The translations under genes were made by a program, and so were the position numbers. From Trileptium ribeirensis (lineage: Eukaryota; Nematoda; Enoplea; Enoplida; Thoracostomopsidae): DNA of 64,000 nucleotides. Positions 8,581 through 64,000 of the stretch are shown here, one piece after another. Numbering within the stretch: the first letter of the stretch is position 1; each line of letters opens with the position of its first letter. The notes beneath the pieces are model-generated. The model was not told the DNA's origin. It searched no databases and saw only the letters and a program-made list of their open reading frames with translations. The stretch lies in assembly GCA_030248225.1 (NCBI GenBank), contig JASANE010003497.1, forward strand, positions 1 to 64,000, written 5' to 3'.

Positions 8581-9110
8581 TTCCCTTCAGGGAATAACAT
8601 GCGTACCCAGCATTCGGTTCGGAGACATACAAACATAGGTGTTCAGTTCTTAACCCGGTGAAGCGTACCCGGACCGGGCGAATGTTCCTAAGATCGGCTC
8701 ATAGTGGACCCTAAACGTCGCCCCGTTTCATGATGGGACTCGGGTTACGTCAATCGGGCGTAACCAAGAGCGGCCCACGCCCATATCACGGGAGAACTGG
8801 AGACCTTAAACGGATAAGGTTCTATGGCAAATGAAAGGCTGGTCAGCCTTATTACCTGTGAGCAGGCTTAAAGGGTGGCCCTCTCTCAGAGGACCTCCAT
8901 ACCACTAGAAGCGTGGGCTTATATAGGGGCCAGGCCGAACACCCTTTTGAAACCGCCGGCGGCCTGCTAAGCTACCCGGTTCCCTCAGGTCAACTAGACT
9001 TCACCGGGAAGCCGGGGTCGTCCTGGCAACGTAGCGGGGAATGGTGCTGTAGCTGGGATCCCTTAGGGCCAGAACTGGTCCTATTACACAAATGCTGCGC
9101 GATTTAAATT
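8581..9110 (+). repeat. third, divergent copy of the long-repeat 3' end
   Basis: It shares the series ACCTGTGAGCAGG, GAGGACCTC, GGCCGAACACCC, GCGGCCTGCTAAGCT and AGCCGGGGTCGT, in the same order as 7950-8160 and 49420-49640. Identity is much lower and the spacing differs. It sits just downstream of copy A in the same orientation. It is probably a related LTR family or an older fragment. Confidence 0.55.
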
Positions 9111-42880: not shown

Positions 42881-43402
42881 ATTAGTTTATAACGTCACTA
42901 TGATATTACAAGGGTTCGCAAAGGGTGAATAATCCATATTCAAGCTTTACTGACATTAGGAAACCGAATTTCTTCTTAATGAAAATCGTCAAAATTCTGT
43001 AGTAGCACAAGGTATAAATTCTGACATTTGTATTTGATATCACCAATTTTCGGATAGCGAAAATGCGAATGAAATTCAGCATTGCGATTCGGTATCTGTT
43101 ATTACAAATAAGAATAGTTGTCGGGGTCAGCTTAAGTTCACTCACACAAATCGTTTGTTGATTTTGTTAAACTGTTTCAACTGTCTTATTATGCTAATTT
43201 TTGTCACAACCGGACGGCTGCGACATCGTCTTCGACATTTCGGGCTCTGCATTATACGCGGCGTCAAAGATGGGCTCCATATGTACCAGGGCCGCTTCGG
43301 CCCTGTCACGAATATTTCCGGATCTTCGCACTCAAAATTGTATCGGAAAGCGTTGGCCAATGCTGTTGGTAAAGAAAAGGAAATCTCGCTTGTATCCGCC
43401 GA

Positions 43403-43800
43403 CCGTTTTGTGTAAAAATGTAATAAACTATTTTGTATAAAATGTCGTTTACCGTTTTGCATAAAAATGTAATAAACTGCTTGGTATAAAATGTCGTTTA
43501 CCGTTTTGCTTAAAAATGTAATAAACTGTTTGGTATAAAATGTCGTATACCGTTTTGCATAAAAATGTAATAAACTGTTTGGTATAAAATGTCGTATACC
43601 GTTTTGCATAAAAATGTAATAAACTGTTTTGTATAAAATGTCGTATACCGTTTTGCATAAAAATGTAATAAACTGTCTTGTATAAAATGTCGTATACCGT
43701 TTTGCATGGAAATGTCAAGAAACTGTTTTGTATAAAATGTATACCGTTTTGCATAACATGTCGTGCACCGTTTTATCCATTCCGTTTCGTATGACATGTC
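43403..43800 (+). repeat. 49-bp minisatellite, about 8 units
   Basis: The unit starts CCGTTTTGCATAAAAATG and recurs at 43403, 43452, 43501, 43550, 43599, 43648 and 43697, then shortened near 43744 and 43769. Because 49 is not a multiple of three and the unit contains no minus-strand stop in any phase, long open frames with a 49-residue period run across it. These are not evidence of a gene. Confidence 0.9.
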
Positions 43801-45300
43801 GTGCTCCGTGTTGTAATTGCCGAATTTGATCATCGGGACGAGTGTTGGGTGAGGCACGCTGGACGAAATAAAGAAATTAGGTTGATCGAGCCGATTTAGG
43901 ACGCTGGACACTATGCTCCACACCGACCGAAAGTAGGCTTCACGTTGCAACCACAACCAGCCGCCGCTACGCGTTAGAAATGTGACGGTGATGACCGTCC
44001 GGGAATAGGAGGCCCCCGACTGCACGTTCAAGAAACAAGTTTGTTAAGACTGAAATCGAAAATATCAAATCTACTTGGTTTTAGCAATATACTGAGCAAT
44101 GGTTACGGAAAACAACAAGACAGAATAAGCGGAAATCACACTTTTTGTAGTCTTCGCAGGCATGCGGAACGACGGATGCCGGGTTAATTCGAAGGCCCGC
44201 CACCGTCCACGGTGCAATGATCCGGAACATAACCAGAGTAGACGGGTAGAACATGTTGGGGAAGTGTGAGGGGACTTCCAAAACCGCCTCGGACAACGCC
44301 AGAACTTCGCCCGTACTACGTAAAGACAATCGCTACTTAGGTAGGATTGTCAACGTGGAACCCGGACAGTTACCTTCCATATATTTAGGACATATCATAT
44401 ATACAATATGTACATGTATCTATTTATGTGTGTGTCCTGTTGACGACTTTTAGGTAGAACCGCCCTGTTTATGCAGCCTATTGCCGTATACGACTAATGC
44501 AAAACCCCACTTTCCGACGTCCCCGTCGCCGTACCCCGCGTCAGAACCGGCGCATGCGACCCCTTGTTTTGTTCATCGTGACTAGTTGAATCCAACAATA
44601 GGTGTCGAACCTCTCCCCGGGTCCCTGTTAACTCGCGGTAGCCTCGCAAGGATGCCTAGGAAGCAGTTGTCAACCGCTGATGGGCACCGATAAATCGAGA
44701 TTTTTCGCTCAACTCTAAAGGGGGCGAACCGCCCCCCATTGGATTCGTCTCGATGAGACATCTCCAAAAATACCCGGCGGGTCCCGGTCCGCCGCGCCGT
44801 TAACCCGGACGACCGACAAACGCGCCCTCACCATAGCCACGACTCTCTCTAATGGCCGCGATTTTAGTACTGCTTTCACTCCTGCCGCCCTGGTGGCAAT
44901 ATCACCCCTCGTTTGAATCGTCGTTGGACGGCGAGTCCAACGATACCAGGCGGGCGTCGCTCCGCCCAACCGTTAACGCAGGAGAGCCCGCCAAAGCTCC
45001 CCATACTAATACACATCGGAACCCATAAGTGGGTTCCGACCCGCTTCTATGTCTAACCCCCTTGTGTTTGGTGTCAATCGACCCCGTTTTCCGTCCTGGG
45101 GCCGAATCTGACCCCAGCCCTCGAAATTCCCCCGGGATTCCCCTTGTCCCGCTTCCCTTCCCACGCCATCTTCGTGTCCTCGCTGTCCTTTCGCTTTTGT
45201 CCTCGTTCTCTCTCTAACCGACATTTCTAGTCGGTTTTCCTTTGTTCCTCTGTCGTTGTTGATGTTGTTTTTTTTGGTGTGCTATGAGTATGTATTTATC

Positions 45301-45324
45301 CTGAGCGACCTTTCTGTCGCTCAG
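45301..45324. other. conserved 9-bp hairpin in long repeat B
   Basis: CTGAGCGAC-CTTTCT-GTCGCTCAG is a perfect stem, with the same core and loop as 4559-4578. The A copy keeps seven pairs. Confidence 0.55.
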
Positions 45325-47845
45325 GACGCCGTTGTGTCTACTGTGTGTAGTATGTGTATGTGTCTGCGTGTGTATATGTATCATATTTACATGTAAGTAT
45401 CTATACATATACATATGTATATATATTTATAAGGACACGACATGAACGAGGACGACCGAGGACAAAACATACAAAAATTGCTAAAATTTCAGAGTTTTAC
45501 GGACGGACAAAACGTGGACTGATAAGACGAACGGGGGGGCGACTTTAGGGCCCTCCCCCGGATCCCAGGGGCCTTGGAGTAGGCCCCGGATCAATTAAGA
45601 GTACGTTAGGGTTCGCCCCGTCTCTGACCTCGAGACGGGCTTTCTTTCGTTGTCGGTTTTCCCCCGGCGAGACTTCGAACTACCGGCATTCACATACAAA
45701 TTTCAAATTGGCTCGGTTCTTTTCGACGTTTTTGGCTGTCCTCAGGAACGAGGGTCATCTGCTAAGTTAGATTTAGCTTAATTAGGATGGCGGCAGGTCG
45801 AGGACAACAAAGACCAAGTCGATCGCCGCCGAGTTAGGATGAGATGGGAAGACCGAACAATCAAAATTCAAACAGATTGACACGCTAATTGGGGTTGAAG
45901 AAGGAAGTTGCGTGTCCCGAAAGTAGTTGTAATAGTTTGAGTTAAGTTGGGACCGGAAATTGTTCGAACATTGTGAGGTTAGGATCCAATTTCGCTGGAC
46001 ATCCGGCGATGAAGACGGGAAATAGGGACTTCAAAATCTACTTTTCTTGGGAAAATTTGGACAAAAATCACAGATAGTCAACTTCCGAGTACTCGGAAGA
46101 TTCAAACTTAAAGTCGGCAAATTTAATTGAAGCCGACTCTCTTTAAGGACATCGATGGTGTACGGTAGCCGTCGAGATTCAAATTTCCGGAAGTGTCCCC
46201 AATTGGACACTGGACAGAAAACCCAAAAAAGTGGGCGTCAAGAAATCGCCAACGTTTGGACGGCGACAAAATCGCCATCGTAACATACAGGCAGGAATTT
46301 CGAGGTTACGACCACCGCGTCGAATCTTGGAATCAGTTCGATTTCGACAGCGCGGAGTTCGGTCGACTTTACTGACCGGCTCCGACGCACTGTTTTAATG
46401 TGTTTAGTTTTCACGCCGCTCTGTTGGTTTTCGCATTTCGTTTGCCTCGGATCGACTCGATGGGCGAAGATTTCCGCGTAGGTGTATGCCTCGCGAAGGG
46501 GGGTTCAGCTGGTGCTGCCCCAAGGATCAACATTCGTAAGTATGAGGAAGGTCTGGCGATCACAGGGGTTTATTTTCCCTGTTAACTGAAGAGTAACAGA
46601 CTATTCGTTTAGCTTCCCCGGAATGTAGCGCACCCTTCGTACTTAGGTAGAAACATTTTAATTTCCGGGTTCCCTAAGAAATGCTGCACACAACCCATTT
46701 CTGGAATCAATCATTAAAATCGGGTTCCGACGTAGGAGACGTTAGGCGATTCGGGATGTACCTGTATAGAGTGCAGTGAGGACTGATCAAACCAATGCGA
46801 AGTCTTTCTGATTCCCCGTGGTCATAGGTAGAAAACACCGAAATGGACGCTTCACGTCCAGACTTTACATGACTTGTTTCTTTTGAGTTAGGTTAAATAA
46901 ATTTTCCTGAGCCGACCACGGTAAAATCCTTGAACGTGCACACCACTAAATAAGGACTTGGTCGATGATTTGTTTTGATGGTTTTCAAATTTGCAGCTTA
47001 GTGGATTGTCCAACGCCCATGCCGTGTTTGGGCTTGGACAGAAATGCAGATTAGGGACGGAGGACTAGCTTCCGTCGGGTTTTAGGAAACCCTTAAAATT
47101 TCATTTTGTTCTTGAGCTAAGAAAATTTGGGAACGCAAAAGACAGATCAAATTCTAGGTACTACCACTTGAGCTTAAGGTGTTTGCTACTTACGCTGAAT
47201 GATGCTTAAGGATAGTCTCAGTTTGATTGCTTGACACCAACCCTATGGTGTTTTCACAAAGTTAGCTGGTATCTTGCCTAGGTACAAGTTTTGTTGCGAC
47301 GACTGACCGAATTAACTTTAGACGCCCCTCTAGACCCCGCCTTATTCCAAAAAACGAGCTGGAGGAGCAAACCCCCAGCTGAACAAAATTTAGCCGACCT
47401 CGACCTAGGACGATGACGCTTCGTTCTGTGGTAATACACAAGTTTTGGACCCAAATAAGAACGTGATCAAAACGATTAAATTTACCGGTGTTCGCCATTG
47501 CCCTACGCAATGGTCTTCTCTCGAGGCCATTGTTTAAAGGACTACAATTAAGGCTTGCCCTCGAGCCATCATTAGATACCGCCGTTACGGGAGAAACGCT
47601 TCGCGTACCCGCCTTCAAATAAAATTTTAGGATTTTCAAAATTTAAGGAAAACTTACCCCCTCGCCCTGGCCATTCCGGCCCCATACCGGGCGAGTGCAA
47701 AACCCCTTTTTCTTTTTAGAGCGAGTTGATCGCTGAGTTTAGTTTTTTGATTTTAGCTCGGTTTGCCCGTTAGGCTATATACTATGTATGCCAGGTTTCT
47801 CTTTTCCTATATTTTTAGTGTCAGCCAGTATATTTTCCCAGTTCG

Positions 47846-47915
47846 TGAGTTGATCCTGCACGGAGAATTCAAGTCCGCTGCAGTTTCATTAGTCTTAACC
47901 ACTCAGCCATAGAAG
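47846..47915 (-). other. tRNA-like sequence with A and B boxes (copy B)
   Basis: On the minus strand TGGCTGAGTGG (complement of 47899-47909) fits the A box of Ser/Leu-type tRNAs and GATCAACTC (complement of 47847-47855) fits the B box. CGGACTTGAATT between them looks like an anticodon arm. Extra bases after the A box and unpaired ends exclude a normal tRNA. Both boxes are conserved in the A copy despite base changes between them. Confidence 0.4.
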
Positions 47916-49409
47916 CACACCAACATCTACTATTAAGTTGGTAATAACTCAACTGAACTATAGGGCAGTCGAGACACTGCATACGGCAGTGTATTAGGAC
48001 GACAAAATCGTCGTTAGAGAGGCAAAAGACAAACGACCAAAGAGAAAACAAAGGACGCTGACGCGTCCCGGGCCGATCGCCCATGGCCCTATAATTCCAA
48101 ACGGCCCCAAAATGCGGGAATAAGGCCGAGTTACCTTTCGACTCGACGCGTTGAGCCTGTAAAACCTGTCCCCATCAAAATTCTAGTAGGAAAATGGGAC
48201 AGTGAACTAAATAAAATTATAAAACGAAAACTAAATAACCAGGCCTGCCCCGTAGGGGCTGCGTCGTAAGTTGCATGGGAGGACGCGTCGTGCCGTTTAG
48301 TTCCCCGATCACATTTAACCGGCCGAACGCCGACGCATTGATTGATCCCCCCTTTGTTTGTTTTTCTTCTCTAGTTTTCGGTTCGGTCAGTCGTACTACT
48401 ACGTAGGTCAGGATGTCAAACGCACTAGAGCAAATTCAGGCGTACGCACAAATGCGAGCATGTTCTGAGGACAAAGTTCCAGGCATCCCTTGTCACCTGT
48501 AAGAGTCGGTATCGCCCGACGTTACGTTACAGCAATGCAAGCGAGCTCACGCTGTCAGTTCGGAGCACTACTTCTCCTTCTGTCCCGCCGTATTATTCGT
48601 CGCCTCGAGCGACCGGCATTACAGAGCATTTTCCGAAGCACTCTAGGACCCCTGCTTAAGGTACTGCATAGCTGATCAACTCGCTAACATTGAGTCGAAG
48701 TAGGGATAACCGCCCCTAGGCCACGCTCGCGCGTGCATCTGCATACTTCGTACATGTTTCCCGTTTCTGTCTTGCACCCCAAAATCCACCGAACGGAAGC
48801 GACCGCTGTGAGCTGCTGCTAGGCATCCCCGGCATGGTCACGAACACTCGTCCCCTGATAAGACATAATTATTAAAATAAACTTTGTATTCTAAACTCTA
48901 TGTTCAGACTTAACTCAATCCGAGACGCTAGGAATTTTCTACTTGCTTCATGGTTTGTCCGTCCGGACGAGCAGGCACTGCTCGCTATGGCTTGTGCGCG
49001 AGAATGCCGCAAGCCCTGACGAGTATGGCCTTCCATCTAATTTATTTGGCGTTTTACTGGAAGCAAGGATTAATACCTAAAGAACACAGTCGAAAAGTTA
49101 CCTCGTCTCCATCCGTAATTCGAAAAGTTCAATAGGGATTTTTGAATACTTTCATCGAAATAGGATTTATTGAAAAGCGCAGGCCACGCCATTGATAATG
49201 CGACAATAAACACTCAGGGCTTGTAGGAACCCTGTGGGGGGCACATAGGGCAATGCTCTATCACGGAGCATACAGCGATCTTAACTAGGTCAATCAACTT
49301 GAGCTCCAAATTTTTCTAGGGACTTTTTTCATATTTTATTTCAAAACTTATCACGCTAAAATAGAACTAAACAACTTCCGATGAGTCTAAGATAGGGAAT
49401 AGCGGCTAC

Positions 49410-49685
49410 GCTCCATGACCTGCGAGCAGGTGTCGGTGTTAGCCTCCATGGGGGACCTCAGAAATCATACCCGATACTAGACACGTGCGCAACCCTTCGG
49501 GCGGGGTCCGAACACACCCCGTGAAGCGCGCCTGCGGCCTGCTAAGCTGCGTAGCTTCTTGGGTCTGACCAAGGATAGGTTCAAAATTTTGTAATCACGG
49601 TCCACCCTTGAGGTTACGATAGCCGGGGTCGTATGGGAATGGTGTTAGGAAGTTGCGCCATGCAGCTGCGTCACTGGTTATTACA
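49410..49685 (+). other. highly conserved, structured 3' end of long repeat B
   Basis: The counterpart of 7940-8215: 75 bases from 49474 with one mismatch, plus the final ~65 bases with about three. Stems ACCTG-CGAG-CAGGT and GGGGT-CCGAACAC-ACCCC are kept. This end abuts the putative primer-binding site. Confidence 0.5.
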
Positions 49686-51127
49686 ACGTATGGGTGCTAC
49701 GCCGTGAGCCGGCGTAAATTCTCATTTGAACCCCACGTAGTGAGTTTAAAATTTTGTCCAAACCTTATGTCGTGAACAGCTAATTTTGTTCAACCCCCAC
49801 GATATGAGTTTGAGTTTCCGTTCAACCCTAGCGCTGCGCAGCTAGTTGAGGCAGCTTCCTAGATACTATTGTAGACTTACTGACAACGGCTGTGTCTAAG
49901 ATATTTACGAGAACTATAGACGCAAATTTTATTTAGGAACAGGACCTCTCGCACATTGCGTTCGAAGAGAACGTCTGCTCGTATAACTCATGTATCATGC
50001 TTACTTACCTGCTTTTTGACGTTTTGGATGTGCTTTGTTATATTGTGCCCTATCTATGTTGATTCTAGAACACTTGGTGCTGTCACACGTTAATCTCTGG
50101 ACTACTTTCGTTGCAGTGGAGGTGTAATACTTTACCCTATGCGTACGTTGAGTGGGCACTTTTTCAGGAACTGTGCGTTAACTAACTACTGCGTTTTATC
50201 TACTTAATATCCTAATTGACTATCATTCGTAACTATAATCGAGTTCCCTGACCAAATTATTACTGTCAACCGAATTGGATCGACGCCTTCATTTACCGGA
50301 ACACTACGTTAGCAACACCCGTTGGACTGGTCTCAACCTATTGAACTTGCATTGATTGGGAATTGGACTGTTAATTACGGCTGGTATTGTACTCGTCTAC
50401 CTGTTGCACCGCAACCGTACGCCGTATATTTGGGACTTTTGCGAACTGCGTGTTAGTGGACTTTTACGAGACCGTTCGGGACCGTCTGTCTGCGAATAAT
50501 TTACGCTGTGGCCGTGTCGCACTGTTTGGATTGTGATTGCCGCACCGCTACCGTGTCTGCTGCTCTCGTTTTCGTACGACTCGATATTTGGGTCTGGTAT
50601 TTCGCTGCTACTGCTGCCGGTTTGGACGTTGACGCTGCGTGGATCGAACGTGACGTACCGTGGAGCGATATTGATTGCTGGACATTTGATTTGGACTTGG
50701 CCGCCGTTGAACAATTAGACACTGTAATTTGCTTTCGTATAATTTTCTTTTGTTTCTATACTTTCTTTGCCTTGATTATTTGTCTAAATCTAATTGGTAA
50801 CGTTGTGCTGTTCTAACCTGCTGTTCTGTATTTATAATTCTGGTCGCCGACTCGTTATATATCTATATATACTGCTTGATTCGGTGCTGACTAGGACCGT
50901 GGAGTTTCCTATTGATAACGAGTTCATGCGATTTGTCTCACATACTCTTGATTTCTGACAAAGGGAGTGTAGAGTATTTCCAAGTCTAAGCGTTACACCC
51001 GACTGATAATAATAGTTGTAATTTTCTTGCCAACCTTAAGCGCCTACCTGATAACTCTTTCTGGATCGTATTGGAACCGAGTCTTACCCGTTACGTCTAT
51101 ACATATCGCGAAACAACAACAGCGTAA
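49686..51127 (+). promoter_or_regulatory. 5' leader of the gypsy-like element with candidate PBS
   Basis: Five bases after the repeat end, TGGGTGCTACGCCGTGAG (49691-49708) begins with the TGG expected of a primer-binding site that pairs with a tRNA 3' CCA. I cannot assign the tRNA. The remaining ~1.4 kb is non-coding as far as I can see. It has short open frames near 50500-50810 on both strands, with no motif. Packaging signals and a splice donor would be expected here but are not identifiable. Confidence 0.35.
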
Positions 51128-53138
51128 ATGGACCCTAATAGTAATCACAACGGAGACTTGGAGACTAGTGATTTCTTCGGTGTGACTGATGGACCGATGG
51201 AGGACACCGTACGGACTAGAACTCGACCGGCCGCAACTGCAGGCGAGCGACCGTTGACGCCGCCACCACCCCGACCGACTGGACACTCGCGTCGCGGAGA
51301 ATTTGCCGAAGCGCTCGGCGCGGACGCGAGTGCCACGAACGCGATTTTACACCACTTAACCACCCAGTCCACTGGTCCTCCAATGATACCGTTAAGGGAC
51401 ATGCCGACCTTTGATGGGAAACCTGGAGGTCAAGATTTCGAGGATTGGGTTCGTATGTATAACCGTCTCGCCAACGCCAATGGTTGGGACGATCGTCGGA
51501 AGTTGATTTGTGTACCTGCCCTCTTGCGTGGACCGGCAAGGGAGGTAGGCCTTCCACCGGCGAAGCGCCAAAGCTTTCTAGGACTCGTCGCTAACTTACG
51601 CTTCTTGTTTTCGTCCTCTCGTAGACCTGAGAAATCACTATCAGGACTTTGCACTAGTCAACAAGGAGCCAATGAACCAGTTGCGATGTACGGATTAGAA
51701 CTACAGAAGTTGTGTGATCGTGCCTTCCCCGACATGGAGGATGAGCAAAGGGACACCATGTTGCGAATGTTCTTTCAGAGGGGCTTACGACCCGAGGTGC
51801 GCAGGCAAGTCCTTAACCAGATTCACGAGCGCGAGACGTTACGTGACACGGTAGCTGTCGCTAAGCGGTATGAAGACAAACGCTGCTTGCCCTGACCCAG
51901 ACGCTTCGGTTACTAGCAAGCCCCGCACTAAAACAGTGAGCTCACTTCTTGAGGAAGGAGGCGAAGGACTGATCACACAACTCCAGACCATGATTGAAGA
52001 ACACCGCAAGGCAAACAATAGTAATAGTGACACGATTAGCAGGTTGTTAGACGTAATTGACAAACGAGCTGAAAACACGCGCCAACTAAATGCACTCGCG
52101 CCGCCGTTCGTGCCAGGCTCGCCTGCTGCGCCACCGTGTCTGCCGATACCGCATATCACTTGCTATCGCTGTGGAGAAGTAGGACACGTTATGCGCGACT
52201 GCCCGCATCCCGCACGCTATCCGCCCGCCGCTATCAACGCGCCGCGCAACGCCGAACCTGCACCAGTTTATGCCTCTGGCGCCATACGTCGAGAGCCAAT
52301 GCAGTACCAACCGAGGAACTACGGAGGAGCCTATCCATGAAACGATAACTATCCTATGGGCCGTGGAGGTCCTCAGCAGCCTCCGCCTCGTCGTTTCGAG
52401 ACCGCAGCTGGATACCGAAATAATCTAGGATGGAATAGTGGAGGAAATCGCCCGGGTTTAAATCAACCTGGATATCAGTCTAACCGTCCACCCCCAGGTT
52501 TTGTTAATAATGTTCGAGGAAACGGAGACTACGCAAGTAACCGACAACCCGCTATGCATAACAACCGGCCAGGACCGACCAATGGATACCAGAGAGTCGC
52601 GAATGAGCGACCCCCGTTTGAGCGCAGTACAGGTCCACCGCAACAGGTAAATCGTCCCTATGCAGGAAACGGAGGAAATAGGAACGGAGGTGCAGTAGAG
52701 CGCCGCAGATATCAACTAAACTGTAGTGCTTCGCAAACAAAAGGTAATCGTGACCCTAGCCCAGCCACCACCCATCGTTTAGATGTACTCAGTCGCGAAC
52801 TCGGCATGATCCAGGGTAAGTTAGGGTATAGCGCGCCGACTGGACGAGTGAACGCCATTGCAATTGCAGACGAACCGCAGTATGACGATGACGGATATGA
52901 AATGAACCGAGACGACGATGACATGGACTTTTCTGAGATGACAGAGGGATTTGCTGAGAGACATTTGAATGTGATTACGACCGCTCCTTGGGCTGACGCC
53001 GCGCGTCTTCCTCGGAGTTGTGGTCCATTCACGCCGATCGACAGTCCCGAAGTGAGCACATTGACTCAACGGACGCCGACCATGAACAGCACTTGGACGA
53101 TAGCACCAGCACTGTATTATATAGCACCGAAAATATAA
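51128..53138 (+). CDS. gag: Gag: capsid region, CCHC knuckle, RG/N-rich tail
   Basis: The ATG at 51128 starts a 255-codon frame. Its second half is a retrotransposon gag (capsid) domain: MPTFDGKPGGQDFEDWVRMY, ALLRGPA and then LRMFFQRGLRPEVR, the conserved C-terminal capsid block. At 51870-51895 the reading moves to the next frame (+1), which carries a coiled-coil-like segment and the nucleocapsid knuckle CYRCGEVGHVMRDC (CX2CX4HX4C, 52161-52202). An in-frame TGA at 52338-52340 interrupts it, after which the same frame runs to 53138 through a Gly/Arg/Asn/Pro-rich tail (MGRGGPQQPPPRR and similar), probably RNA-binding. Gag assembles particles and packages element RNA. The +1 change and the stop may be mutations, assembly errors or recoding sites. 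Confidence 0.8.
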
Positions 53139-55630
53139 AATGTCGAAAAGAGGGTTATTTGGGAGAGGGAATGTACATGTCATGTGTGGACGTGCCTAGC
53201 GCAGGTTTTGATCCACCTGTATATATATCTGCGAGCGACTTAGAGAGAGAACCGCAAGGCGAGCGGCCGATCGATCAATCAAACTGTCCGGCCATACGTG
53301 GGCCCGGAATGAACCAACCAACTTTGATTGCATCAGGAGGTAATAATGATAGTGTTGAGATTTGTGAAGAAGTGGAAACTGGTTATGCGGAAAATTATAG
53401 GTTAAGTGAGTATAAGGAAAGTGATGATTTTATTGCCGGTAGTCCCCAGGGAATCACCTCAAGGGGGAATTCCGGAACCCCCAGCTCTTTGGAGATAACT
53501 GCGAGGAATGTGGATGATGATGTTGATGTAATTGAGCCATTGTTATTATTATTTTCCTCCTCTGTGGCTGGCCATCCGATGGAGAGTGTGGTTGGTGTTG
53601 TTGATGATTATTCCGGCAGGGAAGCCGAGGACGTTGATATGGCTCAGGAAGATATGAATCGATTCGGGTCGTCGTCTGAGACACCCATGGAGCTTTTAGA
53701 GACCGATGGAAGGTCAGGAACGATGGAGGCTGAGACGTACGATGTTAGGGCCCTCTCGGAGTCGTCCAGTCCTAGTTTCGTTCTAAATTATAGGTCGTAT
53801 GATGTAGTATGTGGGTCGGACCGCCGCGCGGGTCGTCCCTTGTGTGATGATGAGAATTGTGTGTCGTATGAACTTGCTGATTTGCCTAGGTTAGGTCGCG
53901 CTTGCAGTCTTAATGAATTATTGGCGGATAATGATGGATGTGATATTGATGTAATTGAGTGCTATTTTGAACCGGCCAATTATAGCACCGATGGACTTGA
54001 GGTGACTTTCCCGACCTCATTGGCAAGGGGTTCCACGGTCATTGGGTCCTTCCTTGATGCTGACCCGGGTCGCCCTTGTCACCCGTATCCAAGCAGAGGT
54101 AGCAGCGTTTTCACGACCGTTCGCACCGATGAAGCGTGTATGATCGTTGGGGCTGAAAGTATTGCCCGGGGTCTGCCCAGATACAGGGATGTAGATGGCG
54201 GAGTGGCAAATAAAGGCCGTCCATCGCATTGTGAGGCTTCCGTTGTGCCAACCGTTGCTGAAGCGCGCAGTAACGTTCCCCATCCTGATTTAAGTTTTTT
54301 CAATGACTTGCTTGATGAAGTTGATACGGTTAATGATGTTGTTTAGCAGAAGTGTATTGAATCGAGGGAGCCGGTTGAGCTCCTATTTGAACGAAACGGA
54401 TCCGAAGCGAGCGATGCGAACTGCTCAGGCGATGCGAATAAGTGTTATCTAAGTCAGGGCGCCCTATCAGATGCTAGTGCTAATGATATGATACCGGGAA
54501 AAGAGCGTAAGTGCGAAATGGTGAGTGCACCCGAAGAACTGATCGACAGTTGTAGTGAGGACAGTGATGATGAACTCGACGAGGAACAACTATTGAGCGA
54601 CGAAGAGTTCTGGGCGAATTGGGAAGATCCGCACGCCGACTGGTACAGACGTGAGCCTGCCCCCGACGTACGAGAGTGGCACCGTGAAGGGGCGTAGGAA
54701 ACGCGCCGAAATAACGTGTTACAGCGAGTACTGTCGGACGAAGGTGTTGACTTGAGCCTGCGAACGAGTCATTTGTCGATCCGCTCCGAAGACGCTGATG
54801 ATAACACCAGCGAGAATGAGGAGAATGAGACCGCCGAAGAAGATAGCGATGAGAATGAGTCGTTGGACGCGAGCGAGTTGAGATTGGATCATTGGGACGA
54901 CAATGTAAGGGAGGATCCTATCGAAGGGTCGCCGCGTATGCGCCCGGATAATTTAGGTGAATCCACTGACACGTTGTCCAGTTTTTCTAGCAGTATTCTG
55001 GGATCCGTCGAAGAGGTGCCTTGTATGCCCTCGGGTAATTCGGATAGCCCACCTAAGAAATCTAAGCTACCTGAGGACGAATCCGTCGAAGGGAGACCAA
55101 GTATGTCCCCGGGTAATTTGGAGGAATCCGTAGTCATAGTAAGTGAACATTCAGACGCATGTATGGGACGAAGACAGTTACTTGACTTTGTGCAGGACGC
55201 TAACGACGAACGATCACGCCGACTGGATGAGCAATTGCATAGCATGTATGGACTTTATCTTATTAACGACCTTCCGATTGAACGAGGACACATTCGCCCG
55301 TTGACGGCGAATGAACGGAATCGTATTGTGGGAACGGACACATTGTTTACTATCTCTACCGATCATGCCGAGACTTCGAACTATCAATATCCGCGCATCG
55401 AAATAACTGAAAATTCGAATCCCTTTGTAGCGGAATGTCTTATTCCGATTAACTTTAGAGCAGGTGAGATAAACCCTAGCTTCGGACAATCTGTGGTCTT
55501 ACAACCCCAGGCTCTTTTCTATAGAAGAGTTGTGTTAGCTATGGAACAATTGAACAACCTGAGTAGGCTTTTCGACGTTCGTTTCGAATGTAGTGAGGAC
55601 GCAACGCTTCAAGAGATTCTGCCATGTTGA
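53018..55630 (+). CDS. acidic accessory frame, unknown function, two in-frame TAGs
   Basis: A single reading frame, overlapping the end of the gag frame, is open for about 870 codons except for TAG at 54344-54346 and 54695-54697. No upstream ATG is needed if it is reached by frameshift from gag. The product is strikingly acidic and Ser/Asp/Glu-rich (SEDSDDELDEEQLLSDEEFW near 54560; ENEENETAEEDSDENE near 54810). Near 54900-55130 three related segments repeat: EGSPRMRPDNLGES, EEVPCMPSGNSDSP and EGRPSMSPGNLEES. The last ~150 codons look folded rather than disordered. I recognise no family. Position suggests a Gag-linked accessory or matrix-like protein. It ends in ATGTTGA overlapping the next start. 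Confidence 0.55.
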
Positions 55631-56562
55631 GCAGCATTCTAGGTATGGCGTCCCCTATCGACCACCGTGTAACTGGATTGTACCTTGATCCAGTGGCTCT
55701 CGCTTCGTTGGAACTCCTCATGGAATTGTTGGGTCAATGCGTGAATGGCCACACGCTCCAGCAAGTCATGGAGAAGGAATTTGAAGCAGAGCTGAGCAAG
55801 TACCCAATGTGCCAAGAGTGTAGGAGGAGTCATAGCCGACCAACATCGAGCGTTGATCCTTGCTGTTATTTTGTCGGACACCACGGAAAATGGAATTATC
55901 GAGGTACTCTAAGCACGGCTTGCGCGCCTATCCGCATTGATGGGTATATAATAGCTAACTGGCGTTACTATATTGGTATTCAGACACCCAAAATGCAACG
56001 ACTCTCCCGTGCAGCTAACATCGACTTGCATGAGATGCTGAGCGAAGCGCCCCAGCTGTTGGAATTTATCTACTGCAATCAGTGCAGCGAAGGAGTCCCA
56101 ATAACTACTTTTGTCCAGTACGCAATGAACCACATGGAGTTTACCGACGAGTCCCATAGACGGGACCGACTAGTGCTCTTGTGCGCGCGTTTGAGACTCC
56201 TGAGACGTCCTGCAAGTGTTAATCTGCTCCAAATCGAGTGCGGTATGACCATAGGTGAGCACGTAGAAGTAGACTACCTGATTTCGGAACCGTGTTCACT
56301 CCGACGCAGCAGTATCACTAGTTCTACTCAAGACCTGGATGAGCAGCTGGCCCTAGCAATGGCCGACTGTTTAAACTCTTCCGAAGAGGATCTTGGTGAG
56401 CAGAATGAACCAACGATAGAGGATGCCCGACCAGCTGATAGGGAAACCCCCAGCGGAACCGATGAACCAATAGTAAATGGTGAGGATGAATCACAGCCTC
56501 CCCGAAAGATGGCTCGATCCTCTTCACCCGGCCTAAACAATGGCCCAGGTCAAACTACAGGT
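55624..56562 (+). CDS. N-terminal cysteine-cluster domain upstream of env, unknown
   Basis: ATG 55624 overlaps the TGA of the previous frame. The first ~235 residues contain MCQECRRSH, PCCYFVGHH and YCNQCSEG, a spacing that could bind zinc, in a helical-looking context (LELLMELLGQCVNGHTLQQV). An acidic/Pro linker (about residues 235-313) then leads, without a stop, into the signal peptide of the envelope-like part. It may be the C-terminal continuation of the accessory protein after a -1 frame change, with the envelope made from its own start at 56563 on a spliced or internally initiated RNA. No family recognised. Confidence 0.5.
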
Positions 56563-57534
56563 ATGCGGAAAGTTTGTACCATCTTACTGTTACTTTGGCT
56601 TTCGACGCTAAGCTCTACGCACGCCACGCTCTCGCCTTTTAGTGACGCGATTTCGCGACTAGGTGCATTTGTAAACCGTCAGGTAGGTGTTGTTGTCGAA
56701 CCGCAGGGTTTGGTCATTACATCTGATCAGACCACGCACTTGCCAGTGGTCCTGCAACTATCATTGCGAGATTGGAAACGAAAATCGAACCCCTACGCAA
56801 GCAAAGTTTGCCCACCATATGAAGCTAACGGATCCTGCCGAGCTGATTGCCGCAGGAAGGCGAACTGTACTGAGTACCGGCAGCTACACACAACCTTGAG
56901 CGCATTAGAACGCGAACTGGACGATGCCTACCACGGCATACTAGACACTAATTACTACTCGCTGCTTGTGCATTCCTTCTGCGTGGAAAACGAGCACCTA
57001 TGTGACCTTACCAACCGCCGAGAAAAACGCTTCGCAAGCCTAATCGCCGCCGCTGCCGGCGCCGTTTCTGGTTTTCTAGGCTTAGGAATGGCCTTTGCTA
57101 ACGGCGTTCATATTAATAACGTACGTCAGCAAGTGACCGTTCTCGAAAAATTCATGCGCGAGACGAATGATGTCTCTTTTCGGAACACTAAAGCAATAAA
57201 GCAATTAACCCGCGCCAATGAGGACATTTATGCATTTCTACACCACAGCATGCAGGAGGTAGTCTCCATGATTGAGCAGGTCCGATGTGCTGACCAGAAA
57301 GAGGTCACACACGTACACCATCAGCTGATTGACCATATACTTCGAGCGAACATGCGCTCGTCGGTACAGGCCATTATGGAGTCCATGTTAAATGGTGAAC
57401 TTTCCCCTGCTGTTATCGATGTCTTCATGCTACGACGACTCTTCGCAATGGATCTCCGCATTTCTAAAACCATTCTGATGCTAGAATCCAGTCTCGCATA
57501 TCAATTTGGTCGAGTGATGCCCTTAAATGTGTAG
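56563..57534 (+). CDS. env: envelope-like glycoprotein, N-terminal part (signal peptide, cleavage site, fusion-peptide-like segment)
   Basis: An internal Met at 56563 starts a signal peptide (MRKVCTILLLLWLS, then small residues and THA). A ~130-residue cysteine-rich subunit with N-glycosylation sequons (NGS, NCT) ends in RREKR at 57016-57030, a furin-type site. It is followed by a hydrophobic Ala/Gly-rich stretch (FASLIAAAAGAVSGFLGLG) and a heptad-like helical segment (VRQQVTVLEKF, IKQLTRANEDIYAFL). Short N-terminal subunit, furin site, fusion peptide and coiled coil are the layout of class I fusion proteins such as errantivirus Env and baculovirus F. The frame stops at TAG 57532-57534. The rest of the protein continues in the next frame from 57570. 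Described as found; no family search was possible. Confidence 0.7.
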   Translation: MRKVCTILLLLWLSTLSSTHATLSPFSDAISRLGAFVNRQVGVVVEPQGLVITSDQTTHLPVVLQLSLRDWKRKSNPYASKVCPPYEANGSCRADCRRKANCTEYRQLHTTLSALERELDDAYHGILDTNYYSLLVHSFCVENEHLCDLTNRREKRFASLIAAAAGAVSGFLGLGMAFANGVHINNVRQQVTVLEKFMRETNDVSFRNTKAIKQLTRANEDIYAFLHHSMQEVVSMIEQVRCADQKEVTHVHHQLIDHILRANMRSSVQAIMESMLNGELSPAVIDVFMLRRLFAMDLRISKTILMLESSLAYQFGRVMPLNV

Positions 57535-57569
57535 ATTTAACATGATTTCGCTTTGGCTTTATTTTGCAG
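57529..57569 (+). other. candidate 41-base intron or frame-breaking insertion inside env
   Basis: The 41 bases begin with GTGTAG and end with a pyrimidine-rich CTTTATTTTGCAG, a strong 3' splice-site look-alike, with TTTAAC as a possible branch point. They contain the TAG that ends the first env frame. Removal would connect phase 0 to phase 0 between the two env frames. An unspliced genomic RNA would keep it, so it could regulate env expression. The donor is weak, and a simple indel is the alternative. Confidence 0.35.
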
Positions 57570-59240
57570 CTACCTTTGCCTAAACGCAGCGATGTTCGAC
57601 CATATTTTCGAGTCTACAACACTGGTTGGAACGCTCCCGACACGCTAACGCAGTTGAGACTACCGCTACCGCAATATGCAGCCAGACTGGGACATGTGCG
57701 CTTCGAGTCGCTGAATCTAGGAGCATGCAAGCACAGACCCGGAATTGCTTTTTGTGCACCCCACGCGTTGCTAACTGATCACAGTACAAATTGCCTAGAA
57801 TGGATCATTGCGGGTGAATTCGGGCCTGAATCCACCAAACACGCATGCAGCAACCGCACGCTTATCGGCCCACTCGCCAACGATACAGCTGTACACACAA
57901 CTATTCAAGGTGTTCTAATTAGGACTAGTGAGCCTGAGGTCATACTGACTAATTGTAGACAGCTCGCGCATGTAACCTTAGGCAAGGCCATTAAAGTCCC
58001 GCCTAACGGAATTCTATGGTTCCCCCATGGAAATTATACGCAGTTAGTAGTAGGTTCGATCGTACTAACAAGCATGCTAAAGCCAGAGGAAATCACAATC
58101 AAATTTGGACCGAATGTTACTATTGACCGGTTCTCCGGCCTCAAATTAAGACCTTTAACCTGGAGTTCAGTCGACGATGCCAAAGCGACAAACTTACAAG
58201 TAGCACAAATAGCCAAGGAACAAGTACAAAAGATAGTTAATTTTCCTGCTTTAGAGTACACCGGACTTTCGCCTTACTTTATAATGACCATCATCGTTAG
58301 TGTAATTAGTCTGATCTACTGCATGACCAAGTGTAAGGTCTCTCCTAAGTACGCGTACTATCTACCCCGATGGCTACCATGCCGCGGGAGACTGATAAAA
58401 ACGGACGGAAAACCCCGAAAAGCAATTAGGTGTATTAGAGCCGACAAAAGAGGCCCAAGTGCACCACCTGAGGAGGACAATACACCCCGAGTTTCGCCGA
58501 CCGAGGTTTCGATTGTACCTTCGGGGATGCCGCGCGTGTCCGTTGTGTCCAATCGTGCCCCGCGTCGTTCTAATCGACTATTGACCACCCGTGCTTCGTC
58601 CGAAGAGGAACTTGTATTTATTGAAGACGACGAATTATTCGCTGCCCCTACTCGTGACTTGCGCCGTGGACCTCGCCAAGGTATGTTCACCAGACAAATA
58701 AACACGATGAATGCAGGCAATACGCCGCTACTCATCAACGCAACCATACTCGGTACTCCCGTCACGACACTTGTAGACACAGGAGCTGACGTTTCAATCA
58801 TGTCACAAGCCCTAGCTGCCCGTCTAGGTTTAGTACCCCGAGATACTAACACTACCCGCATTGTATCAGCTACACAACAGGAACTGACCATCAGTGGAGT
58901 AGTGAAAGCACCAATTACTATAGGCTCGCTAAGCACTCCATGCGACTTCCAAGTAACTACCGACACACCGTATGAATGCATCTTGGGTACAGACTTCATG
59001 GCCCTACTACCGTATGTGGCCATAAATTTCAAGGACCGTTGTCTGGATTTATCGAACGGAACTGAAAATTGTTCAGCTCCCTTTGCCGATCAAGGTGAGT
59101 ATCGACCGCCAGTCATTAACGTAGTATCCCGGGAAATACACACAGATACCGCCGAACACCGAACTATTCATCAATGCGATCCCCGAGATCACTCAACCGC
59201 CCACTGGCCAAGCACTATTTGTACCGGATCCCTTCATTAG
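57564..59240 (+). CDS. envelope-like C-terminal part with membrane anchor, continuous with aspartic protease
   Basis: In one open frame, the first ~230 residues are ectodomain-like: many cysteines and sequons (NRT, NDT, NYT, NVT). Then comes a single membrane segment, YFIMTIIVSVISLIYCMTKC (58275-58334), and a basic/Pro/Ser-rich tail. About 130 residues after the membrane segment is a retropepsin: LLINATILGTPVTTL, DTGADVSIM (active site at 58776) and ILGTDFMALL, which corresponds to the protease's second hydrophobic-Gly block. Envelope anchor and protease thus share a frame with no stop or start between them. The usual Ty3/gypsy order has protease after gag and env after integrase. The frame ends at TAG 59238-59240, and the protease-RT linker continues in the +1 frame from 59125. 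Confidence 0.75.
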   Translation: MQLPLPKRSDVRPYFRVYNTGWNAPDTLTQLRLPLPQYAARLGHVRFESLNLGACKHRPGIAFCAPHALLTDHSTNCLEWIIAGEFGPESTKHACSNRTLIGPLANDTAVHTTIQGVLIRTSEPEVILTNCRQLAHVTLGKAIKVPPNGILWFPHGNYTQLVVGSIVLTSMLKPEEITIKFGPNVTIDRFSGLKLRPLTWSSVDDAKATNLQVAQIAKEQVQKIVNFPALEYTGLSPYFIMTIIVSVISLIYCMTKCKVSPKYAYYLPRWLPCRGRLIKTDGKPRKAIRCIRADKRGPSAPPEEDNTPRVSPTEVSIVPSGMPRVSVVSNRAPRRSNRLLTTRASSEEELVFIEDDELFAAPTRDLRRGPRQGMFTRQINTMNAGNTPLLINATILGTPVTTLVDTGADVSIMSQALAARLGLVPRDTNTTRIVSATQQELTISGVVKAPITIGSLSTPCDFQVTTDTPYECILGTDFMALLPYVAINFKDRCLDLSNGTENCSAPFADQGEYRPPVINVVSREIHTDTAEHRTIHQCDPRDHSTAHWPSTICTGSLH

Positions 59241-61809
59241 AGACATCGCCATCGCACACGCCCTAGTACTCACTGGTCAACGCATGATTCCAGTAGCAAT
59301 GATGAACTTTGGAAACTTACCAGTTGCCATACACGCAGGACAAACAATCGGACACATCGAGATGCTTGATGACAACGAGGTCGAGCTCTTGTACGACAGC
59401 AACAAACGTCTGCTCCAGCTCGGACCTCCCCAGCACACTAAACAGTGCAACCGCATAGGAGTTACACGAGATAACGTGGTGCAGGTCATAAACGACCAAA
59501 AGAAGACAATCGACACGGAACGATCCATACAGGTATTAAGCAAAATTGATTTTGGACAAACCACACTTAACCCCTACGAACTAAAACAATTGAAAACCAC
59601 TATTTCCGAAAATGCCGACATATTCAGTGTGCACCCGTTCGACCTAGGTAGGTGCGGTGTACACCAGCATATGATAACTACAGGGGATGCGAAACCCATA
59701 AAACAAGTGCCCTACCGACTGGCACACTCTCTACGCGAACCCTTGAGGGAAGAACTAAACAACATGGTAGAAGCAGGCCTTGTAACACCATCAGATTCAC
59801 CATGGGGTTCCCCCATAGTGTACGTCACTAAGAGTGACGGCACTTTACGCTTGTGCGTTGACTTCCGCAAGCTCAACGTAGTGGCTGAACGCGACTTGTA
59901 CCCGTTACCCCGCATAGACGACATATTAGGCTGCCTGCGAAACACAAAATTCATGTCTAGTTTGGATCTAAACAAGGGGTTTTGGCAATTAGAATTAGAC
60001 ACCGAGACCAAGGAAAAGACTTCCTTTGTCACTGTCCATGGACAATACGAATACAATGTTCTACTCTTTGGCTTAAATTCTTGCCCAGGCGCCTTCCAAA
60101 GGTGCATGTCAATCATCTTAAAAGGCCTAGAATGGGAGAGATGCCTTATTTACATAGACGACATATTAGTCTTCTCGCCCACATTAGAACAACACTTAGC
60201 AGATCTCATCACAGTCTTTGATAGGTTCCGTAAGGCCAACCTCAAGCTAAAACCCTCCAAATGCCAATTCGGACAGAAACAACTAAAGTATTTCGGACAT
60301 ATCATTAGCTCTGAAGGAGTTAAACCTGACCCCGAGAAAACAGCCGCAATATATAACTACAAACGCCCTGAGACACTCAAACAATTACAGAGCTTCCTAG
60401 GACTTGTAGGCTGCTACCACAAATTCATACCACACTATTCCGAAATTTGTGAACCACTCAACGCCCTCCGACGTAAGGACAACGAATTTAAGTGGACATC
60501 GCAATGCGAGGAAGCATTCGGAAAGCTACGCAAAGCCCTAGTACAAGAACCACTACTTATCTACCCGGACTTTTCCAAACCCTTCATACTACAAACGGAC
60601 GCTTCAGGATACGCTTTAGGAGCTGTACTCTCGCAAAAGACCGACAAAGGGACATTGCCTATCGCCTACGCAAGCAAATCACTAGTGGACTACCAACGCC
60701 GATACCCCGCCATTGAAACTGAAGCCCTCGCTATTCGATGGGCCGCGTTACATTTCAGGCATTACCTGCTTGGACACGAATTCCATGTCGAGACGGACCA
60801 TAAGCCGCTTAACGCACTATTTGAGATACCACCGAGAAATTCACGCCTAGCTCAATGTCGTAAAGAGTTACTCATGGAATTCGGTGGTTTCAATATTGAA
60901 TATCGACCTGGTAAGGCTAATGCCAACGCCGATGGACTTTCACGCGATCCCCGACACGACGTGGACTTCTCCGACTCGGCTGACGAAGCCGAATACGACG
61001 AGCAGGACCATACTCGAATGGTTGCTGTAGCCGTAAAAGGAGAGGATCGTGGCAAGGGCAAAGCTCCTGCCAAACCACCGCGGAGACTTCCTACCGAAGA
61101 AGCTTGGAAACGACTTACGCGACAGTTAATGGGACTTCCCCCGGACGCTCCCGTTAACCTCCCACCCGAGCACGTTAGGGAACGCTTTTATCGCATGTTC
61201 GGAGGACCCGGATATGATCCCCTACCGGACCCAACGCGTTTTATTTTCTGTGAAGACATCGACGACCCATGGCCCGAAGGAGTCGAGATGCCCTGGAGGC
61301 GCTCGACCGCTCCTAGACCGCCGACTGAACCAGCCTCAACTCGAGAACATGTGAGTGACTCAGCCCCTGGACCTTCTTTAGCCCCTGACCCATTCATTAT
61401 ACCTACGCCACCACAAGAACCCCCGACTGCTCCGACACCGCCCGCCCCTGGCGCGGCCAGCGAAAGTTCAACCCGTGCCACTGCTGGCACGCCCGATCCC
61501 ACTAGACCCCAGACACTACCGACGACTGCTAGGAAGAGATATGGTGGGTTATCGGAAGTCGAGGAATTCGATACCTTAATTAGGGTCGCCTACGCATGTG
61601 GATCACGAGTACGACTACAACGCCCTGAACAGGTTTATGACACTGGTGAACACATATACTTACCACACTTCCAACAGTATGAAGGACGAAATCTCATCAA
61701 TTACATACCTTACACCAACGTAGAGACAAACAATTTGGGCCCATGTGGTGGTACTTGCACACTCGACAACCACCAGCAGACGAAAAGGCAGCGACTGCAC
61801 TCAAATTAG
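59125..61809 (+). CDS. pol: Pol: reverse transcriptase and RNase H, proline-rich extension
   Basis: The frame is open from 59125. The first ATG (59284) is not the natural start, because the upstream part (FINAIPEITQPPTGQALFVP) already reads as pol linker. RT: EAGLVTPSDSPWGSPIVYV, LRLCVDFRKLN, FMSSLDLNKGFWQLEL and the catalytic YIDDILVFSPT (YIDD at 60151-60162), then KPSKCQFGQKQLKYFGHIIS, a Ty3/gypsy signature. RNase H: LQTDASGYALGAVLSQK, ETEALAIRWA, VETDHKPLNALF and ANADGLSRDP. All catalytic acids are present. From about 60955 a ~260-residue acidic then Pro-rich stretch follows (PPTAPTPPAPGAASES), absent from ordinary gypsy Pol. It makes cDNA from element RNA inside particles. Confidence 0.9.
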   Translation, partial: YPGKYTQIPPNTELFINAIPEITQPPTGQALFVPDPFIRDIAIAHALVLTGQRMIPVAMMNFGNLPVAIHAGQTIGHIEMLDDNEVELLYDSNKRLLQLGPPQHTKQCNRIGVTRDNVVQVINDQKKTIDTERSIQVLSKIDFGQTTLNPYELKQLKTTISENADIFSVHPFDLGRCGVHQHMITTGDAKPIKQVPYRLAHSLREPLREELNNMVEAGLVTPSDSPWGSPIVYVTKSDGTLRLCVDFRKLNVVAERDLYPLPRIDDILGCLRNTKFMSSLDLNKGFWQLELDTETKEKTSFVTVHGQYEYNVLLFGLNSCPGAFQRCMSIILKGLEWERCLIYIDDILVFSPTLEQHLADLITVFDRFRKANLKLKPSKCQFGQKQLKYFGHIISSEGVKPDPEKTAAIYNYKRPETLKQLQSFLGLVGCYHKFIPHYSEICEPLNALRRKDNEFKWTSQCEEAFGKLRKALVQEPLLIYPDFSKPFILQTDASGYALGAVLSQKTDKGTLPIAYASKSLVDYQRRYPAIETEALAIRWAALHFRHYLLGHEFHVETDHKPLNALFEIPPRNSRLAQCRKELLMEFGGFNIEYRPGKANANADGLSRDPRHDVDFSDSADEAEYDEQDHTRMVAVAVKGEDRGKGKAPAKPPRRLPTEEAWKRLTRQLMGLPPDAPVNLPPEHVRERFYRMFGGPGYDPLPDPTRFIFCEDIDDPWPEGVEMPWRRSTAPRPPTEPASTREHVSDSAPGPSLAPDPFIIPTPPQEPPTAPTPPAPGAASESSTRATAGTPDPTRPQTLPTTARKRYGGLSEVEEFDTLIRVAYACGSRVRLQRPEQVYDTGEHIYLPHFQQYEGRNLINYIPYTNVETNNLGPCGGTCTLDNHQQTKRQRLHSN

Positions 61810-62134
61810 AGGCTCACCACTATCGTCTCTGTCCCGACACTGCCATTCTTTACCTACATCCCATTATGCCTCACGATCACAGACCCAAATTATGTGTGCC
61901 CCGACTACTTATACGACAGATACTCAAACACGAACATGATACTCTATTCGGTGGACACCCAGGTAGGGATCGTCTACTAAGCAAACTTAAACAATTCTAT
62001 TATTGGGAGACCATGGGTAAGGACGTGGACGAATATGTAAAACGATGCGTGCTTTGCCAGCGATCACGAAATTTACCTCAAAATGTTGAGCCGCGCTCGG
62101 AGATAACCCGCTGGCCAGTGCCCCAATGCACGGC
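61743..62134 (+). CDS. integrase N-terminal zinc-binding (H2C2) domain
   Basis: In the frame one base back from the RT frame, with a 67-base overlap, the sequence reads the integrase lead-in and then HEHDTLFGGHPGRDRLLSKL and VDEYVKRCVLCQRSRNLP, the H-x-H...C-x2-C zinc domain (about 61929-62062). The frame is open to 62264, but the catalytic core lies in another frame from about 62090-62135, so the real boundary is near 62125. Two one-base changes around this small domain suggest mutation or assembly error, though the overlap with the RT frame would also suit -1 frameshifting. Confidence 0.7.
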
Positions 62135-64000
62135 ATGTCCGTCGACATATTGGACACTCGGGTTTTGTCCCGAAAGGGAAATAGGTACGTTATCGCCTTC
62201 ATTGACCAATTCACTAAGTTGGTCATCGCTGCCGCATTGCCTGACCAAACAGCTAAGAGTGTAGCTCGAGTTTTCGTCGAAGACGTAGTGTGCCGCTATG
62301 GCGCTCCCGAGCAACTCGTTTTCGACCGACGAGGATGCTTCGTTTCAGAAGTCATGGAAGCCCTATGCGCTAGGCTACACACTTTTAAGCGAGAAACTTT
62401 GAGTTACAATCCGAAAGCCAATGGAGAAATCGAACGTTTCAACCGCACACTTTTATTCCTCTTAAGAGTAGCTTTACCTGAGAATGATCATACAACTTGG
62501 GACGAAGTTCTACCCTACTGCATAATGTCCTACAATTCCGCAGTACACGCTTCTACCCATTACCCACCTTTCATGCTCATGCACGGATTCCAACCCCGTG
62601 TACCGGGTGGAATCGAGACACAGACTGATTGGGGACGCTATCCCGGAGCAGAAGCTTATCGTGCTAACGTACAACGATGGTTAGCCACGATTAGAGATCG
62701 AGCCTATCGCTCCATGGAATCCGCCAAGGAATACAGAAAACGTTACTACAATCGCAAAATTAAGGTCCCAGACTACCGAGTTAACGACCATGTTTGGGTC
62801 TACCGATACTATACAACACCTGGACTATCACGCAAGCTGGAACGCAGATGGTGTGGACCGTATCAGATTACTAAGATAATGTTGCCCTGCATCTGTGTCA
62901 AACTCCCACCACAACCCAACGCCTCTGACCACGTAGTCCATGTCAATCGCACCAAACCATGTTATAGACCACTTAGTAGTTTTCCGGACATGGCCGACTT
63001 ATTGAAAGCTGTGCCTCCCGCTTACATTGAAGCCGCACTACAGGAACCCGGAGAAACTATCCTTGCCGATAAATATTTCGCTAGGGAGTTACAGGCTGCC
63101 GACCCAGAGGCAGTCGACCGACTGCGCCAAGACATCGACGGCGCGTCCGATACAACTAGTGTAGAAATTGGCGATCCTAATCTAGTATACACGCAAGCTC
63201 AGGCTGACATACACCGCGCCGTAGTGGAACAATTAGCCATTCAGGCCCCAGTTCAAGGTTCATCTGGAGCTCCGCAACAAAACAGACTACCTATTTGTGA
63301 TCCCGATAGAACTCCCGACACCGAATGGCGCGCTATCTCGCAGGAACTCGCTACACAAGACCTCGCTAAGCTGCCGTACGCGCTTGGTAGGCCCCCAGGC
63401 TCATTCTCTCCAGAATACAGACGACATACTGCCCCAGTTACCATACGGGAACACGAGCGATCCGTCAGAACGGAGGAACCAACTAGACCTTTAGCCCTGC
63501 CACGCTCAGGAAATGGTCGATCACTAGGCCCATTTAACGTCAACGACTTAGGCCTCGTCGAACTACTTGCCTCGCAGGATCCAGACGAGCCCTCACCTCA
63601 TACTCCCGAATCAGCTATATCTCCTACCTCAGCCGTACAACACGCCGTCCAGACTTCGCCGCTTACGCCTGCCCAGCGCCGCGCCGCAGTCGCTACACAA
63701 ACCTGCCGCAGTCCCCGTTCGCAACGCTTAGTCTCTGACTCGGACAAACCACTGGTACCGTACCGCCCCCGTCGCGAATCTCCTGAGCTACATGAACTGC
63801 GATACCCCAAACCCCGACACGCTTATTCCGCTCCACCTACTCCGCTCCCACACACGCCGCTAATGCCTCTAGGATTCGAAGCTACGCTAGAAGAGTATAC
63901 CCCAGATGAATGGATTACACCGTACTCGACACCTCCTAGACCACCACCTACGCAATCCGCACCAGTGTATAGCCAGCCTCCCGTAGAACCAGCTCCAACT
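62090..64000 (+). CDS. integrase catalytic core, GPY/F-like module and long C-terminal tail (runs off window)
   Basis: The frame opens at 62090 and has no stop through 64000. SVDIL gives the first catalytic Asp (62144), VFDRRGCF the second (62324) and NPKANGEIERFNRTL the Glu (62432), with exactly 35 residues between the last two, as in the DD35E family. YYNRKIKVPDYRVNDHVWVY, then RRWCGPYQI, is the GPY/F module, ending at VVHVNRTKP (about 62960). It then continues for at least 345 residues of Pro/Ser/acidic low-complexity sequence. Integrase inserts the cDNA into the genome. The tail is much longer than usual and no chromodomain is seen in the part available. Confidence 0.85.

Follow-up and report, generated by a model that had tools for sequence, protein, structure and literature searches.

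The plus strand of the window, by which we mean the whole stretch of 64,000 nucleotides that was analysed, carries from 51.1 kb to the window end at 64000 one retroelement in which an envelope-like segment lies between gag and protease. We consider it probable, if well short of certain, that this locus represents a large provirus-like element of Ty3/gypsy (Metaviridae-like) type in a partly decayed copy. Its plan would be that of Burro: a long LTR is followed by gag, an accessory region, an envelope of class-I-fusion type and then protease-RT-RNase H-integrase. Support for this reading comes from the domains and their order, the open frame that leads from the envelope anchor into the protease, the rare furin-site layout, the lack of nested-LTR repeats, the shared LTR-like flank and the published order of Burro. 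Our confidence is slightly lowered by the negative codon score over the leader and tail of the envelope-like segment, and by an extra sequence match beyond the end of the presumed solo LTR. The envelope identity rests on architecture rather than on a homologue, and the segment is a candidate class-I-fusion-type protein.

Domain order of the element

The features of the element and its 5' flank are as follows.

43993..49685, + strand: LTR-like 5' flank, with its right end at ...TTATTACA (49685)
51128..51895, + strand: Gag capsid-like frame, ORF of 255 aa; Retrotrans_gag E 0.084, under the Pfam cut-off; coding score positive, but not independent since this frame belonged to the codon-score training set
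51870..52340, + strand: nucleocapsid with one CCHC knuckle (52161-52202); Pfam zf-CCHC 1.8e-8
52356..53138, + strand: Arg/Gly/Pro-rich, then acidic continuation of the Gag frame past an in-frame stop; no Pfam family at E 1
53018..55630, + strand: acidic frames 53018-54346, open stretch 54350-54694, and 54716-55630, separated by two in-frame stops
55624..56562, + strand: Cys-rich region directly upstream of the envelope leader and in the same frame; 313 open codons (0/20000 by chance)
56563..57534, + strand: envelope-like first half, with leader, RREKR, fusion-peptide-like stretch, heptad-like region and stop codon
57564..58340, + strand: envelope-like second half in a different frame, with Cys cluster, 4 sequons and anchor (58266-58322)
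58323..58733, + strand: tail from anchor to protease, open in the protease frame; 137 stop-free codons, codon score partly negative
58734..59000, + strand: DTG retropepsin; Pfam gag-asp_proteas 6.9e-14
59284..61809, + strand: RT and RNase H in a frame that differs from that of the protease; RVT_1 (59827-60306) 5e-29, RNase H (60493-60870) 5e-36, also 2.5e-32 within the RT/RNase H frame
61743..62264, + strand: integrase zinc-binding domain; Pfam Integrase_H2C2 5.4e-21
62126..64000, + strand: integrase core and long Pro/Ser-rich C-terminal frame; rve 4.7e-9; ORF still open at 64000

The succession of protease, RT, RNase H and integrase, all with gypsy-type domains, is that of Ty3/gypsy (Metaviridae) elements. 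A first-pass annotation of this DNA had proposed an envelope-like gene between gag and protease, and the order of the Pfam domains bears this out, with the envelope identity being architectural only. It had also described a DTG protease followed by RT; that order holds, while the RT turned out to lie in another frame than the protease. The top PDB match of the protease was DDI1 homolog 2 (6.4e-8). For the nucleocapsid, a single C-x2-C-x4-H-x4-C match was found in the three plus-strand frames of 51001-64000.

The 6.5 kb that separate the knuckle (52.2 kb) from the protease (58.7 kb) are taken up by mostly open frames, which comprise in this order the Arg/Gly-rich Gag continuation, the acidic frames, the Cys-rich region and the envelope-like segment. 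The acidic frames contain 19-22% D+E, and stop-free stretches of their lengths arose by chance in 0, 17 and 0 of 20000 sequences for the three in order. Their codon score was around zero or negative across much of 53.0-54.3 kb. Pfam gave nothing above its cut-off for these frames and no family for the Cys-rich region. The envelope-like gene is placed upstream of pol; the element extends past the window end, so that another gene may follow the integrase there. A Pro/Ser/Thr-rich extension follows the integrase in frame (62600-64000, + strand) and runs past the window end.

Architecture of the envelope-like segment

The RREKR site at 57016-57030 is immediately followed by FASLIAAAAGAVSGFLGLGMAF (19-residue KD 1.89), which opens a fusion-peptide-like Ala/Gly-rich hydrophobic stretch at 57031-57105. 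When the residues of the first envelope half were shuffled 20000 times, 60 shuffles had a furin-like motif with such a hydrophobic stretch directly behind it, and none of 55 control frames of at least 100 aa, taken from the plus strand at 1-50900 and from the whole minus strand, showed this layout. The presumed surface part has 2 sequons between the leader and RREKR, 4 more lie between 57570 and the anchor, and a single hydrophobic anchor (KD 2.02) occupies 58266-58322. The cleavage site, Ala/Gly-rich segment, sequons and membrane anchor noted in the first-pass annotation are all present. Heptad periodicity after the fusion-peptide-like stretch was scored over three lengths: out of 5000 shuffles, 102 reached it over the first 40 residues, 22 over 60 and 346 over 80.

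Other features of the segment are less distinctive. The leader, MRKVCTILLLLWLSTLSSTHA, was judged by a hydropathy cut-off, and its 12-residue KD of 2.26 falls slightly short of our chosen value of 2.3. The codon score is for the most part positive in the envelope frames. It falls to strongly negative values at the leader, ~ -10 for the two 150-base windows that start at 56525 and 56600, and is negative in part of the tail (-4.5 at 58475). Of the signal peptide proposed earlier, what stands is a hydrophobic leader, below the cut-off and with a negative codon score. An anchor of the observed strength or more was reached in 1676 of 20000 shuffles, which means that composition alone can give such an anchor. 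Given a leader that is under the cut-off, an anchor that its composition readily allows, and a codon score that turns negative over the leader and in part of the tail, it is the order of the features that carries the case for an envelope.

Searches for sequence relatives of the segment were negative within their reach. Word-based phmmer, run with each envelope half at E up to 10, gave 0 matches among 831 and 6020 candidates, these being limited to proteins of 0.55-1.75 times the length of the query frame that share 5-residue words with it. Matches of the halves in Pfam, PHROGs and PDB were at chance level, the best being APP_E2 at 0.011, under the cut-off, and neither Pfam nor phmmer matched them to errantivirus or baculovirus F proteins. 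An AlphaFold comparison had been suggested for 56563-58340; the prediction was run for each half alone, and the mean pLDDT values of 39.2 and 34.0 make these models unusable for a fold comparison.

The missing homologue, like the ease with which shuffles yield an anchor, would also fit another secreted or membrane protein that was captured by the element and is no envelope at all. We give this explanation a rather slim chance, because the features run as they do in class I fusion proteins: a leader, a furin site directly followed by the Ala/Gly-rich hydrophobic stretch, a heptad-like region, a Cys cluster, sequons and a single anchor near the C-terminus. The Env of TelKA is described with a similar layout (PMC5408684).

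Reading frames, flanks and alternative origins

The first-pass annotation treated 55624-59240 as a single open frame. Read in one frame, this stretch contains 45 stops: the first envelope half stops at 57534, and 55624-57534 and 57564-59240 are in different frames. The second half, anchor, tail and protease do share one open frame (57564-59240), so that the proposed in-frame fusion of env to protease holds for this part and fails for the first half. A stop-free run as long as the 137 codons from anchor to protease was found in 22 of 20000 Markov sequences, and this open connection looks real and unlikely to be due to chance.

Since no overlap exists between the open parts of the two envelope frames, joining them takes more than one small change, or an intron, at the border. 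An intron is the basis of a different account, in which a small spliceosomal intron lies in the envelope: genomic RNA would stop in mid-envelope, spliced mRNA would join Env to the protease, and Gag, Env and Pol would be made from different RNAs. A single-base slip cannot bridge the non-overlapping frames, an acceptor-like pyrimidine-rich GCAG is present at their border, and in Cer1 of C. elegans the protein CERV is reported to be made from spliced mRNA (PMC10309623). Set against this, frame-compatible GT..AG pairs at this border number 15, and of the 12 that were listed even the best have weak donors, which agree with only 5 of 9 consensus positions. We regard splicing of this kind as unlikely, though deserving of some weight.

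From Gag to integrase there are about seven frame changes and three in-frame stops, and consequently no single polyprotein can be read from this copy. Genuine borders between ORFs may account for some of the changes, and decay, assembly error and splicing may leave the same traces here. We infer damage or an error of assembly, and not biology, behind the frame changes, in keeping with the preferred reading of a partly decayed copy.

The flank upstream of gag (~44-49.7 kb) and 3020-8211 of the window are largely collinear, at 60-85% identity in blocks. The left edge of the flank is at 44549 by the main alignment block or at 43993 by a weak block, and in both places the alignments end at most 7 bases past TTATTACA. 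From these alignments we read 43993-49685 as a putative 5' LTR of ~5 kb and 3020-8211 as a putative related solo LTR of the same element family. This reading is not a clean one: a weak match (66%) links 49415-49548 to 8851-8973, which lies 640 bases beyond where the solo copy ends. By eye, no primer-binding site was recognised, and around the putative solo LTR there was no convincing target-site duplication (two 4-base candidates, none of 5 or 6 bases). The 3' LTR would fall outside the window. A tandem array with a period of ~49 bases (43402-43756) adjoins the left side of the LTR-like flank.

An ungapped search of 50000-64000 found no direct or inverted repeats of at least 25 bases. The absence of such repeats at the borders of the envelope block speaks against the nested insertion that had been named as fatal to the original proposal, as far as a nested LTR element or one with long terminal inverted repeats is concerned, and leaves room for other rearrangements. 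A further account has the accessory and envelope block enter the gag-pol junction in this copy alone, by insertion or recombination, or has two elements joined by the assembly. The frames are broken, the codon score is weak in 53.0-54.3 kb, and the copy is the only one seen: tblastn of ten element pieces against window bases 1-50900 gave seven chance-level rows (E 0.24-0.93) and no second coding copy. A private event nevertheless appears unlikely to us in view of the lack of LTR-like or long inverted-repeat borders, the frame that stays open from the anchor into the protease, and the publication of the same order for Burro (PMC6431247).

Burro, other known systems and further features of the window

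Arkhipova and Yushenova (2019; PMC6431247) describe giant gypsy-like elements of planarians, named Burro, in which env sits between gag and pol and is in frame with them. The order is thus already described and not new in itself, which overturns the earlier remark that no described element with it was known. Burro is reported from Schmidtea mediterranea and Dugesia tigrina, with an internal part of up to 25 kb, more than 30 kb overall, and an Env-homologous region between BCL2 and PR within one polyprotein; Dugesia japonica contains decaying Burro fragments with stops and frameshifts (PMC6431247). The likeness that we see is drawn from this published description. As in Burro, Gag with CCHC comes first, followed by an accessory region, an Env-like segment before PR and then PR-RT-RH-IN, in a very large element. 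The position between Gag and PR is shared, subject to the architectural nature of our Env assignment. The single Env-Pol ORF of Burro has a partial counterpart: the second envelope half with its anchor and tail is in the PR frame, whereas the first half and RT are in other frames. Further differences from the description are that Burro forms one ORF (4,873 and 5,140 aa in two species) where we find split frames, and that it has two or three CCHC knuckles where we find one. BIR/BCL2/MATH/ankyrin or midasin-like domains are described for Burro and none appeared here by Pfam; the scanned pieces gave no match to BIR, BCL2, MATH, ankyrin or dUTPase domains, with Pfam being less sensitive than the HHpred used in that paper. 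The GC content of the window is ~43%, and the S. mediterranea genome is reported to be >70% A/T (PMC11410931), which makes S. mediterranea an improbable source of the window. Among the listed papers that we read, Burro alone is described with env between gag and pol; the literature search was not aimed throughout at gene order, and a phrase search gave no paper, not even the one on the env of Burro, so that its empty result carries no weight as a negative.

Errantiviruses (gypsy) also combine a Ty3/gypsy pol with a furin-cleaved Env of class I type. Their env is a separate ORF downstream of pol. The same combination is described for TelKA of bdelloid rotifers, whose Env resembles paramyxovirus F and which differs from our element in that Env is a separate ORF3 downstream of pol (PMC5408684). 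Cer1 is likewise a Gypsy/Ty3 element that gains an extra gene via splicing, but CERV is a nuclear RNA-export protein whose C-terminal part corresponds to the polyprotein's end (PMC10309623). MDG1-group elements with an sORF2 fusogen share a fusogen gene that does not follow pol; there, it is a small FAST-like protein upstream of gag and no class I Env (PMC11952523).

We infer the translation, topology and processing of an Env-Pol precursor as follows. In a functional relative, the Pol precursor would include the envelope, or translation would continue from the envelope into it. Directed by the hydrophobic leader, the ectodomain of the envelope would enter the ER lumen; signal peptidase would detach the Gag side upstream, and RREKR would be cleaved by furin. 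With the anchor in the membrane, the tail and Pol would stay in the cytosol, where Gag would also be, and the protease there would release itself. One precursor could in this way supply Gag, Env and Pol after the action of signal peptidase, furin and its own protease, with Env sitting in the membrane between cytosolic Gag and Pol parts. Under the preferred reading, the locus would add to Burro a second instance in which an envelope-like gene separates gag from pol, in a host that is probably not S. mediterranea, and if relatives with whole frames exist, it would become testable how one precursor can serve capsid, membrane fusion and replication. Alternatively, the element might belong to a lineage apart from Burro that made its own placement of a different envelope in the gag-pol junction, with Pol produced as a membrane-tethered Env-Pol fusion, perhaps only from spliced RNA; we consider such a separate origin doubtful.

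RT relatives numbered 3773. Among the 120 listed, the closest by identity were P0001 (67% over 53% of the query) and P0017 (63%); their contigs are short (4643 and 3378 bases), and their proteins start at or inside RT. Upstream of RT, hydrophobic stretches were present in 2 of the 120 (P0070 and P0112) and furin-like motifs in 9, and P0112 was the only one with both, 108 residues apart; this screen says little, since 87 of the 120 had any residue scanned, only 6 had at least 600, and 2 lacked a recognised RT motif. Scans of viral contigs and genome contigs confirmed no relative. By tblastn, the second envelope half with protease gave no match in phage records, and the RT frame gave three in plasmid records at <60% identity. 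Scans of the window for tRNAs and Rfam families found none.

Two further features were observed elsewhere in the window. A broken BEL/Pao element lies at 20439-23369 (+ strand), with a Pao peptidase A17 match of 8.9e-45 and with aspartyl protease (0.0011) and integrase core (1.2e-4) pieces under the cut-off. A plus-strand frame at 15378-16514 combines a zinc-knuckle-like stretch, recognised by eye, with a NADAR domain (Pfam PF08719, 6.2e-14). An endonuclease frame (16539-17060) that we read as LINE-like, with no Pfam match at 0.01, follows directly downstream, and the frame at 15378-16514 is possibly the ORF1 of a LINE, carrying a NADAR domain.
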